Source of the DNA: Alistipes sp. ZOR0009
GTDB taxonomy: Bacteria; Bacteroidota; Bacteroidia; Bacteroidales; ZOR0009
Length of the DNA stretch: 64,000 nucleotides
Assembly (NCBI RefSeq): GCF_000798815.1
Contig: NZ_JTLD01000033.1
Coordinates: 62,001-126,000, forward strand
Direction of reading: 5' to 3'
Below the pieces are notes generated by a model. It did no database searches, was not told the origin of the DNA, and was given only the letters and a program-made list of their open reading frames with translations. Each line of letters starts with the position of its first letter. The stretch's first letter is position 1. The position numbers and the translations under genes were made by a program. Shown here piece by piece: positions 5,849 through 12,993 of the stretch.

Positions 5849-6502
5849 ATGTTGAACTTTATAGAGCAGTTTTGGGGAGCACGGCTAAAGAGTATTTCCA
5901 AAGCGTTTGAAAAAAATGGCTTCGAGGTGACCCTTTGTAAAACCATAGAGGATGCCCGCAATGCCATCGTGGAGATTGTTAAGCACGAGAAGCCTGCCGC
6001 TGTTTCGTATGGCGACTCCATGTCGTTGAGGAGTACCGGAGCGCTTGAGGTGATTAAGGCAATGAAAGATGTTAGCTTTATCGACGGCTTTAACCATTCG
6101 ATGCCCCGAGAAGAGCGGCTGGCATTGCGTAGGCAGGCGTTAACCTGCGATTTGTTTTTGGCAGGTGTAAATGCTTTTACGGCTAAAGGGCAGCTCGTTT
6201 GGCTCGACATGATTGGCAACCGTATTGCTCCAATTTCGTTTGGTCCTAAAACCGTTGTTCTTGTGGTTGGACGAAATAAGCTAACGGCCAACCTCGAAGA
6301 GGCAATGTCGCGTGTTCGTACCTATGCGGCACCAATCAACGCCATTAAGCACACCGATTTTAAGACACCTTGCCAAACAACCGGGACCTGCCACGATTGT
6401 GCTAGCCCTCATCGAATTTGTAACAGCTGGCTAATTATGGAGAAATCGTTTCCAGTTGGTCGTGTTAAGCTTATTTTAGTTGACGAAGATCTGGGTCTTT
6501 AA
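5849..6502 (+). CDS. LUD-domain (LutC/YkgG-like) protein with C-terminal Cys cluster
   Basis: 217-residue protein of the DUF162/LUD family. Signals are AAVSYGDSMSLRSTGALEVI (about 50-69), LALRRQALTCDLFLAGVNAF and TAKGQLVWLDMIGNRIAPISFGP. LutC with LutA and LutB forms an L-lactate oxidation complex, but neither partner is nearby, so this is a solitary LUD protein of unknown role. The C-terminal segment has a Cys-rich stretch, CQTTGTCHDC then RICN (about 174-190), which could bind a metal or Fe-S centre and is seen in a subset of stand-alone members. It lies 96 bases upstream of the amrA-amrS-amrB operon, on the same strand. Confidence 0.82.
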   Translation: MLNFIEQFWGARLKSISKAFEKNGFEVTLCKTIEDARNAIVEIVKHEKPAAVSYGDSMSLRSTGALEVIKAMKDVSFIDGFNHSMPREERLALRRQALTCDLFLAGVNAFTAKGQLVWLDMIGNRIAPISFGPKTVVLVVGRNKLTANLEEAMSRVRTYAAPINAIKHTDFKTPCQTTGTCHDCASPHRICNSWLIMEKSFPVGRVKLILVDEDLGL

Positions 6503-6598
6503 CAACCATTGTTGTTTTATATCGTATTAATGTAAGGAGATTGCGGGTGTAATTCGGTAATCTCTTTACATTTTGCAGTAAACCATAAAGCATCAGCT

Positions 6599-7111
6599 AT
6601 GACAGAACCTTGTAGTGTACATGTAAAGCTGGCAAAGGAGGCTATCGAAGCTGCTTTTTCGGGGGGAAAAGTATCGCCGCTACAGGCGCACGAGCTAACC
6701 CTTCCTGCGGCCTGCTTCGTCTCCCTTCACATGACCGATGGCGCCTTAAGAGGCTGCATTGGTACGCTTGAGCCTCGGAAGAGTTCGCTCTATGAGGAGA
6801 TAATCGCCAACTCTTTGTCTGCAGCGTTTCATGATCCTCGCTTTGAGCCTCTACGTCAGGAGGAGTTAGGCCATCTTTATATATCGGTTGACGTACTGCA
6901 TGTGCCCGAGCCAATCGCTTCGGCTGAAGAGTTAGACCCGTTGATTTATGGTGTTATTGTGGAACGAGGTAATAGAAGAGGTGTGCTACTACCCAACCTC
7001 CCCTCCATTGCTACCGTAGATAGGCAGCTGGCGATTGCAAAAAGCAAAGCTGGCATTGGAGCCGAGGAGAAGGTTACTCTGTATAGATTTATGGTTGATA
7101 GATATTTTTAG
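6599..7111 (+). CDS. amrA: AmmeMemoRadiSam system protein A (AMMECR1 domain)
   Basis: 170 residues, the full length of a stand-alone AMMECR1 domain. The hallmark LRGCIGTLEP is at about 49-58, followed by ANSLSAAFHDPRFEPL and LYISVDVLHVPEPI, which are typical of the family. The function of AMMECR1 proteins is not firmly established. In bacteria and archaea they are encoded with a Memo-like protein and a radical SAM enzyme, exactly as here: amrS starts 6 bases after this stop. The three genes run in the order A, radical SAM, B on one strand, which strongly suggests one transcript and joint function. No promoter motif is clear, though TACATTTTG near 6565 is close to the consensus. Confidence 0.9.
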   Translation: MTEPCSVHVKLAKEAIEAAFSGGKVSPLQAHELTLPAACFVSLHMTDGALRGCIGTLEPRKSSLYEEIIANSLSAAFHDPRFEPLRQEELGHLYISVDVLHVPEPIASAEELDPLIYGVIVERGNRRGVLLPNLPSIATVDRQLAIAKSKAGIGAEEKVTLYRFMVDRYF

Positions 7112-7117
7112 CAACAT

Positions 7118-8119
7118 ATGGAGGCAAAGTATTACGTATCGGAGAATGGTAAGGTGAGATGCTTGCTCTGTCCGCACAGATGCGCCATTGCCGAGGGGAA
7201 ATCGGGTATTTGTAGGGTGCGTAAAAACATTAATGGGCGGTTAACCGCCATCAGCTACGGGCTGATATCCGCTTTGGCGCTCGATCCCATCGAGAAGAAG
7301 CCGTTATACCACTTCTATCCTGGTTCAAAGATCCTTTCGTTAGGAAATGTTGGGTGTAACTTTGCGTGTCAGTTTTGTCAAAACCATGTTATTGCGCAGG
7401 CGGTAGAGTTTGACTTTGATAGGTATGAGCAAAATATCGCCCCAGACTTTGTGGTTAAGAAAGCAAAGGCTGCAGTGGCCGATGGAAACATTGGCGTTGC
7501 ATATACCTACAACGAGCCAACCGTTGGCTTCGAGTTTATGCTCGATATTGCCAGCCGGGTAAAGGCTAAGGGGCTAAAGAATGTAATGGTATCAAATGGT
7601 TTTATCGAAACTGAGCCATTAAAGGAGCTTCTAGATGTTGTTGATGCCTTTAATATCGATTTGAAGTCGAGCACTAACGAGTTTTATGCGCACTTACTGG
7701 GTGGCAAGCGCGATCCTGTTCTGAATACGCTCCTAGAGATAGATAGAGCTGGCAGACATTTGGAGATAACCTACCTTGTTATTCCTGACGAGAACGATAA
7801 TCGTGGGGAGTTTCGTAAAACTTGCCAATGGATTGCTTCCAATTTGGGGCCATCTACCGTTTTGCATGTTACCCGCTACTTTCCTAACTACCATTTTAAC
7901 CAACCGCCAACGTCGCTTACCTCCATTCTCGATTTGTACGGTATTGCAAGGGAGCATCTGCAGCATGTGTATCTTGGGAATACGGGTATGTCGGAGTATA
8001 GCAACACCTACTGCGACCATTGCGGGAAGCTAATGGTGGAGCGGCGAAGCTATCAGGCCAACCTGCTGGGATTATCGAAGGACGGTAAGTGTTTGGGATG
8101 CGGTAATGTTGCATGGTAA
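7118..8119 (+). CDS. amrS: AmmeMemoRadiSam system radical SAM enzyme
   Basis: 333-residue radical SAM protein. The iron-sulfur motif CxxxCxxC is GCNFACQFCQNH with C80, C84 and C87. Four upstream cysteines (C15, C18, C22, C32) in RCLLCPHRCAIAEGKSGICR give the PflA-like N-terminal zinc or cluster segment usual in this family. A C-terminal segment has CDHCGKL and later CLGCGN, a second likely zinc site. YTYNEPTVGFEFM and NIDLKSSTNEFY are conserved family stretches of the TIM barrel. The substrate is not known to me. It overlaps or abuts amrB and follows amrA by 6 bases, so the three are probably translationally coupled. Confidence 0.93.
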   Translation: MEAKYYVSENGKVRCLLCPHRCAIAEGKSGICRVRKNINGRLTAISYGLISALALDPIEKKPLYHFYPGSKILSLGNVGCNFACQFCQNHVIAQAVEFDFDRYEQNIAPDFVVKKAKAAVADGNIGVAYTYNEPTVGFEFMLDIASRVKAKGLKNVMVSNGFIETEPLKELLDVVDAFNIDLKSSTNEFYAHLLGGKRDPVLNTLLEIDRAGRHLEITYLVIPDENDNRGEFRKTCQWIASNLGPSTVLHVTRYFPNYHFNQPPTSLTSILDLYGIAREHLQHVYLGNTGMSEYSNTYCDHCGKLMVERRSYQANLLGLSKDGKCLGCGNVAW

Positions 8120-8964
8120 AACAAATGAAGATGAGCATCAGGGAGAATTATGCCGAAGGTCGGTTTTATGGTAGCACTGCAAGCGCAATTACTCGCGTTT
8201 TTGACGATGCGGTTGCAGCCGAGCGTCCTTCTATTTGCTATTCGCTAAAAGATAAGGTGATTTGGGGCGGTGTTGTGCCCCATGCTGGCCATGTGTACTG
8301 CGCTCGCGAAGCTGTACATTTCTTCGAGATCGTAAAGGCAAGCGGAGTTTTGTTTGATACGGTCGTTCTTATCAATCCAAACCATACAGGTTACGGCGAT
8401 GCTGTTTCTATTGACAGCCATTCGCACTGGAAAACCCCTTTAGGGGTGGTTGAGGTTGATATGGAGCTTGCCAATTTGATGAATGTTCCTATTAGTGATG
8501 CCGCTCAGCGGTTGGAGCATTCTGCCGAAGTTGTTCTTCCGTTTATACAGCATTTTTTAGGCGATACGATTCGGCTTCTTCCTATCAACATGCGCGATCA
8601 GAGCTACAGAAGTGCCACCAATTTAGCCGCCGAACTTCGTTTAGCCGTTACGTCCTTACAGCGTAAGGTGCTGGTTGTCGCTTCTTCCGATTTTAACCAT
8701 TTTAAAAGGCCGCAGGTGGGCTATGAGCTCGACAGCTACGCCTTGGAGGCTCTTTTGAAGTTCGATCTTCAAGAATTTGAGCGCAGGGTGAAGGATAAGA
8801 AGGTTTCTATTTGCGGCTATGGAGCCATTATGGCGCTGCTGCAGTACGCCATGCTGGTTGACGAGCAGCCTAAGGTGGATGTGCTTCGGCGTGGGCACTC
8901 CGGCGAGGTGTTTCGCTCCGATGAGGTGGTCGATTATGTATCTTTGCTGGTTTACAGCGAATAA
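8113..8964 (+). CDS. amrB: AmmeMemoRadiSam system protein B (Memo-like)
   Basis: 283-residue protein of the Memo family, structurally related to extradiol-type dioxygenases. The putative metal ligands are visible: VPHAGH (H57), NPNHTG (H91), SSDFNHF (H196) and ICGYGAI (C234), matching the His-His-Cys/His pocket of human MEMO1. The ATG at 8113 overlaps the amrS stop by seven bases. ATGs at 8125 and 8131 (MSIRENYAEGRFYG) are equally plausible and fit the family N-terminus better. This is the last gene of the amr operon; no strong terminator is visible before the next gene at 9059. Confidence 0.92.
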   Translation: MVKQMKMSIRENYAEGRFYGSTASAITRVFDDAVAAERPSICYSLKDKVIWGGVVPHAGHVYCAREAVHFFEIVKASGVLFDTVVLINPNHTGYGDAVSIDSHSHWKTPLGVVEVDMELANLMNVPISDAAQRLEHSAEVVLPFIQHFLGDTIRLLPINMRDQSYRSATNLAAELRLAVTSLQRKVLVVASSDFNHFKRPQVGYELDSYALEALLKFDLQEFERRVKDKKVSICGYGAIMALLQYAMLVDEQPKVDVLRRGHSGEVFRSDEVVDYVSLLVYSE

Positions 8965-12544: not shown

Positions 12545-12647
12545 GGTTGGATATCCTACTATGGCGATACTTGCATTGTAGAGCGCGTTACTACCGCTAT
12601 AAAGGTTGCTTGATGTTGCACAAAGGTGACTTGCGGCTTTACGGACG
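12545..12647. other. intergenic DNA before repeat array 2
   Basis: About 100 bases without a gene. Fragments such as AAAGGTTGCTTG and AAAGGTGACTTG, 22 bases apart, may be decayed outer units of the array that follows. Confidence 0.35.
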
Positions 12648-12993
12648 CCAATAATTGGTAAACAAGAGGCATTAATCGCTTTATTGAGGCCATTAATTGT
12701 TGTATTGAAGCCAATAATTTGGAAACTGATGGCATTAATTGCGTTATTGACGCCAATAATTGTTGTATTGACGGCATTAATTGCTTTATTGAAGCCATTA
12801 ATTGGAAATCAGATGGCATTAATTGCTTTACGGACGGCAATAATTGGAAATCAAACGGCATTAATTACGTTACGGATGGCATTAATTGGAAATCAAATGG
12901 CATTAATTACCGTTACGGACGCAATTAATTGCCTATCAAGTGGCATTAATTGCTGTATAGACGCCGTTAATTGGTAGTCGAGCCGCATTAATT
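12648..12993. repeat. repeat array 2: 17 units of 21 bp with an ATTAAT dyad core
   Basis: The core ATTAAT (or AATAAT, GTTAAT) recurs at 12650, 12671, 12692, 12713, 12734, 12755, 12776, 12797, 12818, 12839, 12860, 12881, 12902, 12924, 12945, 12966 and 12987. Every step is 21 bases except one of 22. The common unit is GGCATTAATTGC, a near-palindrome, followed by one of three tails: CTTTATTGA, TTGTATTGA or GAAATCARA. Reading frames on both strands are open through most of it because the period is a multiple of three, so ORFs giving heptads such as QLMPSIQ are expected by chance. It lies between convergent genes, the M20 peptidase and the YgbA-like gene. It has the same period as array 1 but an unrelated sequence. 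Confidence 0.95.

Follow-up and report, generated by a model that had tools for sequence, protein, structure and literature searches.

The window analysed here, a stretch of 64,000 nucleotides of DNA from Alistipes sp. ZOR0009, carries three adjacent plus-strand genes of the AmmeMemoRadiSam system. The first, amrA (6599..7111; 170 aa), encodes AmmeMemoRadiSam protein A with its AMMECR1 domain; it scores 136.1 bits against TIGR04335 (cut-off 99), also exceeds the cut-off for PF01871 (148 bits), and has the structures 1zq7, 1vaj and 1wsc as relatives in the PDB. It is followed by amrS (7118..8119; 333 aa), the radical SAM enzyme of the system, with 311.6 bits against TIGR04337 (cut-off 220) and a match to PF04055 above the cut-off, and by amrB (8113..8964; 283 aa) for protein B (Memo), with 219.1 bits against TIGR04336 (cut-off 26) and 150.6 bits against PF01875 (cut-off 27). 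A gap of 6 nt (7112-7117) separates amrA from amrS, and amrS overlaps amrB by 7 nt (8113-8119), exactly as given in a preliminary description of this DNA made from the letters alone. That description had named the trio a complete AmmeMemoRadiSam operon, and the identification holds, with all three open reading frames above the curated NCBIfam and the Pfam cut-offs; the family-model scores exclude chance as an explanation of trio identity. The source genome contains one match for A, one for B and one S above the cut-off, a second S-type match reaching 29.7 bits, far under the TIGR04337 cut-off. We are thus nearly certain that the amrA-amrS-amrB operon of the window is complete and intact, present in one copy, cytosolic and of the split A-S-B type.

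All residues that had been highlighted as important are present in the translations. The LRGCIG motif of A (residues 50-55; 6746..6763, plus strand), read from the sequence, is well conserved among 33 aligned A proteins preselected by score and length (L50 in 32, R51 in 31, G52 in 29, C53 in 31, I54 in 29 and G55 in 33). In S, the translation contains the radical SAM CxxxCxxC motif (C80, C84, C87; 7355..7378, plus strand), kept in 107/107 S proteins. B has H57, H91 and C234 at metal-ligand positions, with H196 nearby. Two further Cys groups flank the radical SAM core of S on the same strand, an N-terminal Cys4 (C15, C18, C22, C32; 7160..7213) and a C-terminal Cys4 (C299, C302, C325, C328; 8012..8101), the latter likely a zinc ribbon. 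These extra groups had been pointed out in the preliminary description. They do occur at both ends, but they are the norm of the family: among 107 S proteins from open reading frames longer than 300 aa, the N-terminal Cys4 is found in all, C299 and C325 in 105, and C302 and C328 in 104. An earlier S set that included shorter frames gave 58/59 for the N-terminal and 54/59 for the C-terminal group.

The tight packing of the genes turned out not to be conserved. The 6-nt spacing differs even within the genus, where A and S are 175 nt apart in L063 and 114 nt apart in L064, and S and B 41 and 21 nt, respectively. A survey of gene neighbours, proposed as a check in the preliminary description, thus upheld the order of the genes but not their spacing: A-S-B recurs in both same-genus genomes and several further members of the order, while many genomes have S at a distance from A and B.

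Association of the three families was then evaluated across genomes. Among 247 genomes of the order, A was found in 113, S (above the cut-off) in 119 and both in 107; among 198 genomes of the phylum, the corresponding numbers were 34, 51 and 34, the 51 S being counted at E under 1e-50 (50 of them above the cut-off). Co-occurrence of A and S in genome lists copied by hand gave p = 1e-47 (Fisher test, phylogeny ignored). The dependence is one-sided, since S occurs without A in 12/119 S-bearing genomes of the order and 17/51 of the phylum; A without S is seen in 6/113 and 0/34, and part of the phylum sample, e.g. G010 and G020, has S and B with no A. About 88 of 126 A matches in the order lie in open frames of at least 440 aa, and those inspected are B-A fusions, which replace or accompany the split form in many genomes. 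A search with an S profile retrieved 80 named loci from bacteria and archaea, and both A and B exceed the cut-off in archaeal control genomes, in line with the bacterial and archaeal spread claimed beforehand. Methanosarcina acetivorans and Thermotoga maritima each have A and B above the cut-off and a match to S. An A or B match lies in at least 22 of these 80 stretches, a lower bound because the local A and B HMMs, being narrow, were built from this order; short contigs also limit detection. Natural B-A fusions and A-S co-occurrence support a functional link between the three proteins. Chance neighbourhood of genes with separate functions might be suspected from the variable spacing within the genus and from the many genomes with S apart from A and B. 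We give it almost no weight, as it is contradicted by the fusions, by the co-occurrence (with the reservation on phylogeny made above) and by the A-S-B order kept in the genus and beyond.

The gene upstream of amrA (5849-6502) encodes a LUD-domain protein, and the gene downstream of amrB a protein with an LtrA match under the Pfam cut-off. The LUD gene was considered as a fourth member of the system and rejected; it adjoins A in the window and in L064, and it is probably a mere neighbour, because a tblastn search of the L063 stretch returned no such gene. A regulatory hairpin upstream of amrA (6532-6569) was likewise rejected, no conserved element having been found in pattern scans or in the same-genus upstream sequences. 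A separate scan for promoters and terminators gave 1 promoter-like match vs 5.4 expected and 5 terminator-like matches vs 4.6 expected. NusB and GMP-synthase-like genes beside a lone A, both identified by eye, were treated as housekeeping neighbours. In a few cases an acylphosphatase-like gene, recognised by eye and with a local HMM, adjoins S (L094-L096 and L138) or lies near it (L077).

Analysis of gene neighbours revealed a gene for a SpeE-like multi-pass membrane protein next to B-A fusions (BA). This protein matches PF01564 in L102, with aminopropyltransferase models far under their cut-offs; none of the ten window proteins scanned matches Spermine_synth. In a quick tree of S, all 12 SpeE-linked rows cluster within a single 22-row group to which the window S does not belong (branch support 89, unstarred). 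Members of this sister lineage occur in Bacteroidales, the order of the window to judge from its nearest named S relatives, and also in named records from Omnitrophota, Elusimicrobia, Desulfobacterales and elsewhere. Its proteins carry N-termini that are Tat-like or hydrophobic on S and lipobox-like or signal-like on BA. In a subset of the fusion matches comprising 67 BA loci, 56 of them from 60 additional stretches of the order, BA was signal-like in 57, and a SpeE-like neighbour was present in 37 of these 57 vs 0 of the 10 others. At least 31 BA loci have no S within the stretch covered, often at contig ends. For the 36 S proteins (at least 250 aa) encoded beside BA, signal and SpeE-like neighbour are both present in 26 and both missing in 7, with 3 discordant cases. 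Two of the latter are the signal-less second copy of a tandem S pair whose other member bears a signal (L205, L207), and three of the seven S with neither feature adjoin a signal-like BA (L166, L215, L226).

A strict Tat motif within the first 30 residues was found in 30/107 S proteins vs 3/1090 other open reading frames (at least 200 aa) of the same loci. This is the fair comparison, because the 42 S proteins flagged as signal-bearing were picked partly by their Tat pattern; the corresponding split is 30/42 flagged and 0/65 unflagged. The motif reads KR in 25 of the 30 proteins and RR in 5, KR not being the classical twin arginine. Pfam TAT_signal matches 4/40; the TIGR01409 model scores above its cut-off in L135, whose S passes both TIGR01409 and TIGR04337, and under it in L102. 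Two flagged S look like products of misplaced starts (L112, L148), and one unflagged S has an RR motif further in (L167). The hydrophobicity test alone is loose, being passed by 404/1090 control frames, and the Sec-type and BA signal calls are therefore weaker than the Tat-type calls. All 42 flagged S proteins keep C80/C84/C87 and the N-terminal Cys4 and thus resemble catalytically active radical SAM enzymes. A crude topology estimate, counting hydropathy and positive-inside residues, places the enzyme domain of the SpeE-like protein outside in 32/42 cases and inside in 10/42. The L223 locus has tatC immediately upstream of BA; after two small open reading frames come the SpeE-like gene and S. 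In a hand-compiled list, TatC was detected in 25/26 genomes with a Tat-like S vs 205/247 (p = 0.04), the single miss being a genome of 78% completeness (G351). No TatC match was obtained in the source genome or in the two same-genus genomes, all of which have the split form, and the window S, whose first Cys is preceded by just 14 residues, has no N-terminal extension for a signal.

These patterns suggest, with slightly better than even odds, that AmmeMemoRadiSam operates in two compartments. The form in the window would be cytosolic, while the sister lineage would perform radical SAM chemistry outside the cytoplasm, with a predicted Tat-exported or membrane-anchored AmrS, a predicted secreted or lipoprotein B-A fusion, and a SpeE-like multi-pass membrane protein whose enzyme domain is in most cases predicted to face outwards. 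We know of no extracytoplasmic radical SAM enzyme. Full-text literature searches yielded no exported example among the matches listed, and such chemistry, if true, would be very surprising. SAM or an analogue would have to reach the periplasm, the substrate would probably be a membrane lipid, a quinone or a protein rather than nucleic acid, and a dedicated reductant and a route of SAM supply would become candidate genes to look for.

Some loci offer candidates for the electron supply. In L132 and L141, a gene for a membrane protein that combines DsbD_2, FMN_bind and Fer4_5 domains directly precedes a signal-bearing S, and smaller relatives of its DsbD_2 part adjoin S in L117, L149, L150 and L156. 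Judged by its domains, this protein is a plausible electron conduit and could feed electrons to S. A second redox-type context consists of genes of the ApbE, NusG_II and heptaprenyl-diphosphate-synthase-I (HprI) families, which are linked to quinone and flavin electron transfer. In L115 and L118, members of all three families lie after S. L139 has NusG_II and HprI before S, and L146 has NusG_II after it. Same-strand NusG_II thus lies near S in four loci, three of which also have HprI and two ApbE. All four fall into the larger clade to which the window S belongs, and the context is rare (4/76 S-bearing genome-contig loci). PMC7074142 associates ApbE genes with those for heptaprenyl diphosphate synthase. 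Neither an export signal nor a redox-module neighbour is present in the window trio; both lines of evidence stem from its relatives.

The AF2 model of the window S (pLDDT 96.0, pTM 0.93) is closest to the pyruvate formate-lyase activating enzyme, PFL-AE (3cb8: Z 24.8, rmsd 2.3, 227 residues aligned), the next family following at Z 18.4; Foldseek returned PFL-AE as well, with E = 1.6e-13. The alignments run from residue 43-47 of S to residue 286 and include neither of the two Cys segments. This likeness raises the question of whether AmrS is itself an activase, with A or B as the substrate that would receive a glycyl radical or a cross-link, for instance in the LRGCIG loop. Structure 3cb8 was solved with a peptide substrate, A is seldom found without S, and in the sister lineage the signals on S and BA mostly appear together, all of which would fit. 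Yet the window S scores only 62.9 bits against the PFLA model TIGR02493, far under the cut-off of 231.75, S and B occur without A in part of the phylum sample, and eukaryotes, which are not known to have S, possess both A and B, so at least some roles of these two do without it. We regard an activase role as unlikely, at perhaps the upper end of what that word covers. None of the ten window proteins scanned is a glycyl radical enzyme.

A profile of B identified human MEMO1 (7kq8) with E = 1.6e-34, which bears out the claimed human homologue of B; as a single sequence, the window B gave no PDB match at 0.001. Its H57, H91, C234 and H196 align with H49, H81, C244 and H192 of MEMO1, numbered by counting from the alignment with a chain offset of 3. 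According to an excerpt of PMC11081632, iron in MEMO1 is coordinated by H49, H81 and C244 with H192 non-ligating, MEMO1 affects iron homeostasis, dioxygenase activity was not detected with the substrates tried, and the primary molecular function was called unknown in that 2024 paper. With the MEMO1 ligands conserved in the window, B could mainly be a handler of iron or copper that S and A maintain or protect. This would leave unexplained why a radical SAM enzyme accompanies A in 107/113 genomes of the order and 34/34 of the phylum, and we consider it improbable. The L166 B-A fusion model matches MEMO1 and archaeal AMMECR1 structures; its domain arrangement was left unused in view of a pTM of 0.69.

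The trio might instead modify a nucleotide or an RNA base, reportedly one of two contexts proposed for it by Burroughs et al. 2019. Beyond this prediction, the radical SAM RNA enzymes RlmN and TYW1 are among the structural matches of S, a weak argument. Nucleic acids are not expected beyond the cytoplasmic membrane, and signal-like N-termini on S and BA in a lineage that keeps the catalytic Cys of S, by which both are predicted to be exported, argue against a nucleic-acid substrate; we rate the proposal a shade lower still than metal handling. The main comparative study of the system, Burroughs et al. 2019, is mentioned in PMC7159879 and PMC7694686. In agreement with the preliminary description, full-text searches, with most subscription journals and preprints outside their range, yielded no assigned reaction or published function of the trio among the matches listed and in passages of PMC7159879, PMC11081632, PMC7694686, PMC7074142, PMC10924467, PMC9861516 and PMC9062700.

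In the simplest account, S carries out a radical SAM step on a substrate that A and B hold or process. AmrS would bind SAM at a [4Fe-4S] cluster coordinated by C80/C84/C87 and generate a 5'-deoxyadenosyl radical, which would abstract a hydrogen from a substrate held or further processed by A and B; A would contribute its conserved LRGCIG cleft, and B, binding iron or possibly copper via H57/H91/C234, would perform an oxygen-independent redox step. We propose this division of labour tentatively. For the substrate we favour a membrane-associated molecule (isoprenoid or quinone-like) or a protein over tRNA or nucleotides. Two observations point this way: S and a B-A fusion are apparently exported together in the sister lineage, and in a few lineages S adjoins ApbE, NusG_II and heptaprenyl-diphosphate-synthase-I genes. 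Counting against the account are the S-bearing genomes that lack A, the small share of the 80 S loci with an A or B match, the rarity of the isoprenoid-type context, and the eukaryotic occurrence of A and B. Taken as a whole, with identity, mechanism and substrate class, we assign this explanation a probability of roughly 40%.

AmmeMemoRadiSam is an already named family, with the gene names amrA, amrB and amrS used in an excerpt of PMC9062700, and the trio described here is an ordinary complete copy. It shares with the family the scores above curated cut-offs and the adjacency on one strand, and no distinguishing feature was found in it. By itself this copy adds little; it is the comparison with relatives that makes the question testable. 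With PFL-AE, S shares its core (residues 44-286) at 19% identity, and it differs by the N- and C-terminal Cys4 segments, which are extra in S. B belongs to the same superfamily as the LigB-type class III extradiol dioxygenases, and clostridial relatives have a LigB-like B domain fused to A. The two differ at the third iron ligand: the Glu or Asp of LigB is missing in the window B, which reads I-C-G vs E-C-G in 5/6 LigB-A fusions and Q-C-G in the remaining one (L168), and C234 takes the position of MEMO1 C244. Human MEMO1 is homologous to the window B and shares the H-H-C metal ligands of its predicted site, the difference being that the window B is bacterial and stands in an operon with S, an enzyme that human cells, to our knowledge, do not have. 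The human homologue of A we take to be AMMECR1, and the conservation of B in humans as MEMO1 lends the reaction of the system its wider interest.

N-termini resembling Tat or Sec signals were read from the sequence of 42 of the 107 AmrS proteins longer than 300 aa, including those of the relatives' loci L098, L101, L102, L117, L135 and L172, and many of the genes for these signal-bearing enzymes adjoin a signal-like fusion of the Memo protein to the AMMECR1-domain protein A (B-A fusion), together with a SpeE-like multi-pass membrane protein. As judged from these sequences, the loci apparently represent an exported AmmeMemoRadiSam lineage. At two loci, a membrane protein combining DsbD_2, FMN_bind and Fer4_5 domains is encoded directly before a signal-bearing AmrS (L132:5585-7249 and L141:7997-9739) and is a possible electron conduit. 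L205 and L207 each hold tandem AmrS copies, only one of which has a Tat-like N-terminus, next to a SpeE-like gene and a B-A fusion.

Other AmrS genes have same-strand neighbours encoding NusG_II and a heptaprenyl diphosphate synthase of type I (L115:10933-12710, L118:10948-12843 and L139:9104-10001); L115 and L118 additionally carry ApbE. An acylphosphatase-like gene is located between the genes for A and AmrS at L095:9512-9781 and L096:9512-9790, and directly after AmrS at L138:11035-11313. The AmrS open reading frames of L067, L068 and L074 comprise only 291-292 aa, compared with the usual 330 or more; they are shorter at the C-terminal end, where the four cysteines lie, which may reflect real loss or truncation.

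Repetitive ORF translations revealed short-unit repeats at 872-1138 and 12559-12977 of the window, and similar simple repeats fill the A-AmrS spacer of L064 (9818-9931), from the same genus.

In the Bacillota relatives L113, L119, L128, L164, L168 and L182, protein A is fused to a LigB-like domain rather than to a typical Memo domain, with the motif ECG in five of the six fusions and QCG in that of L168.
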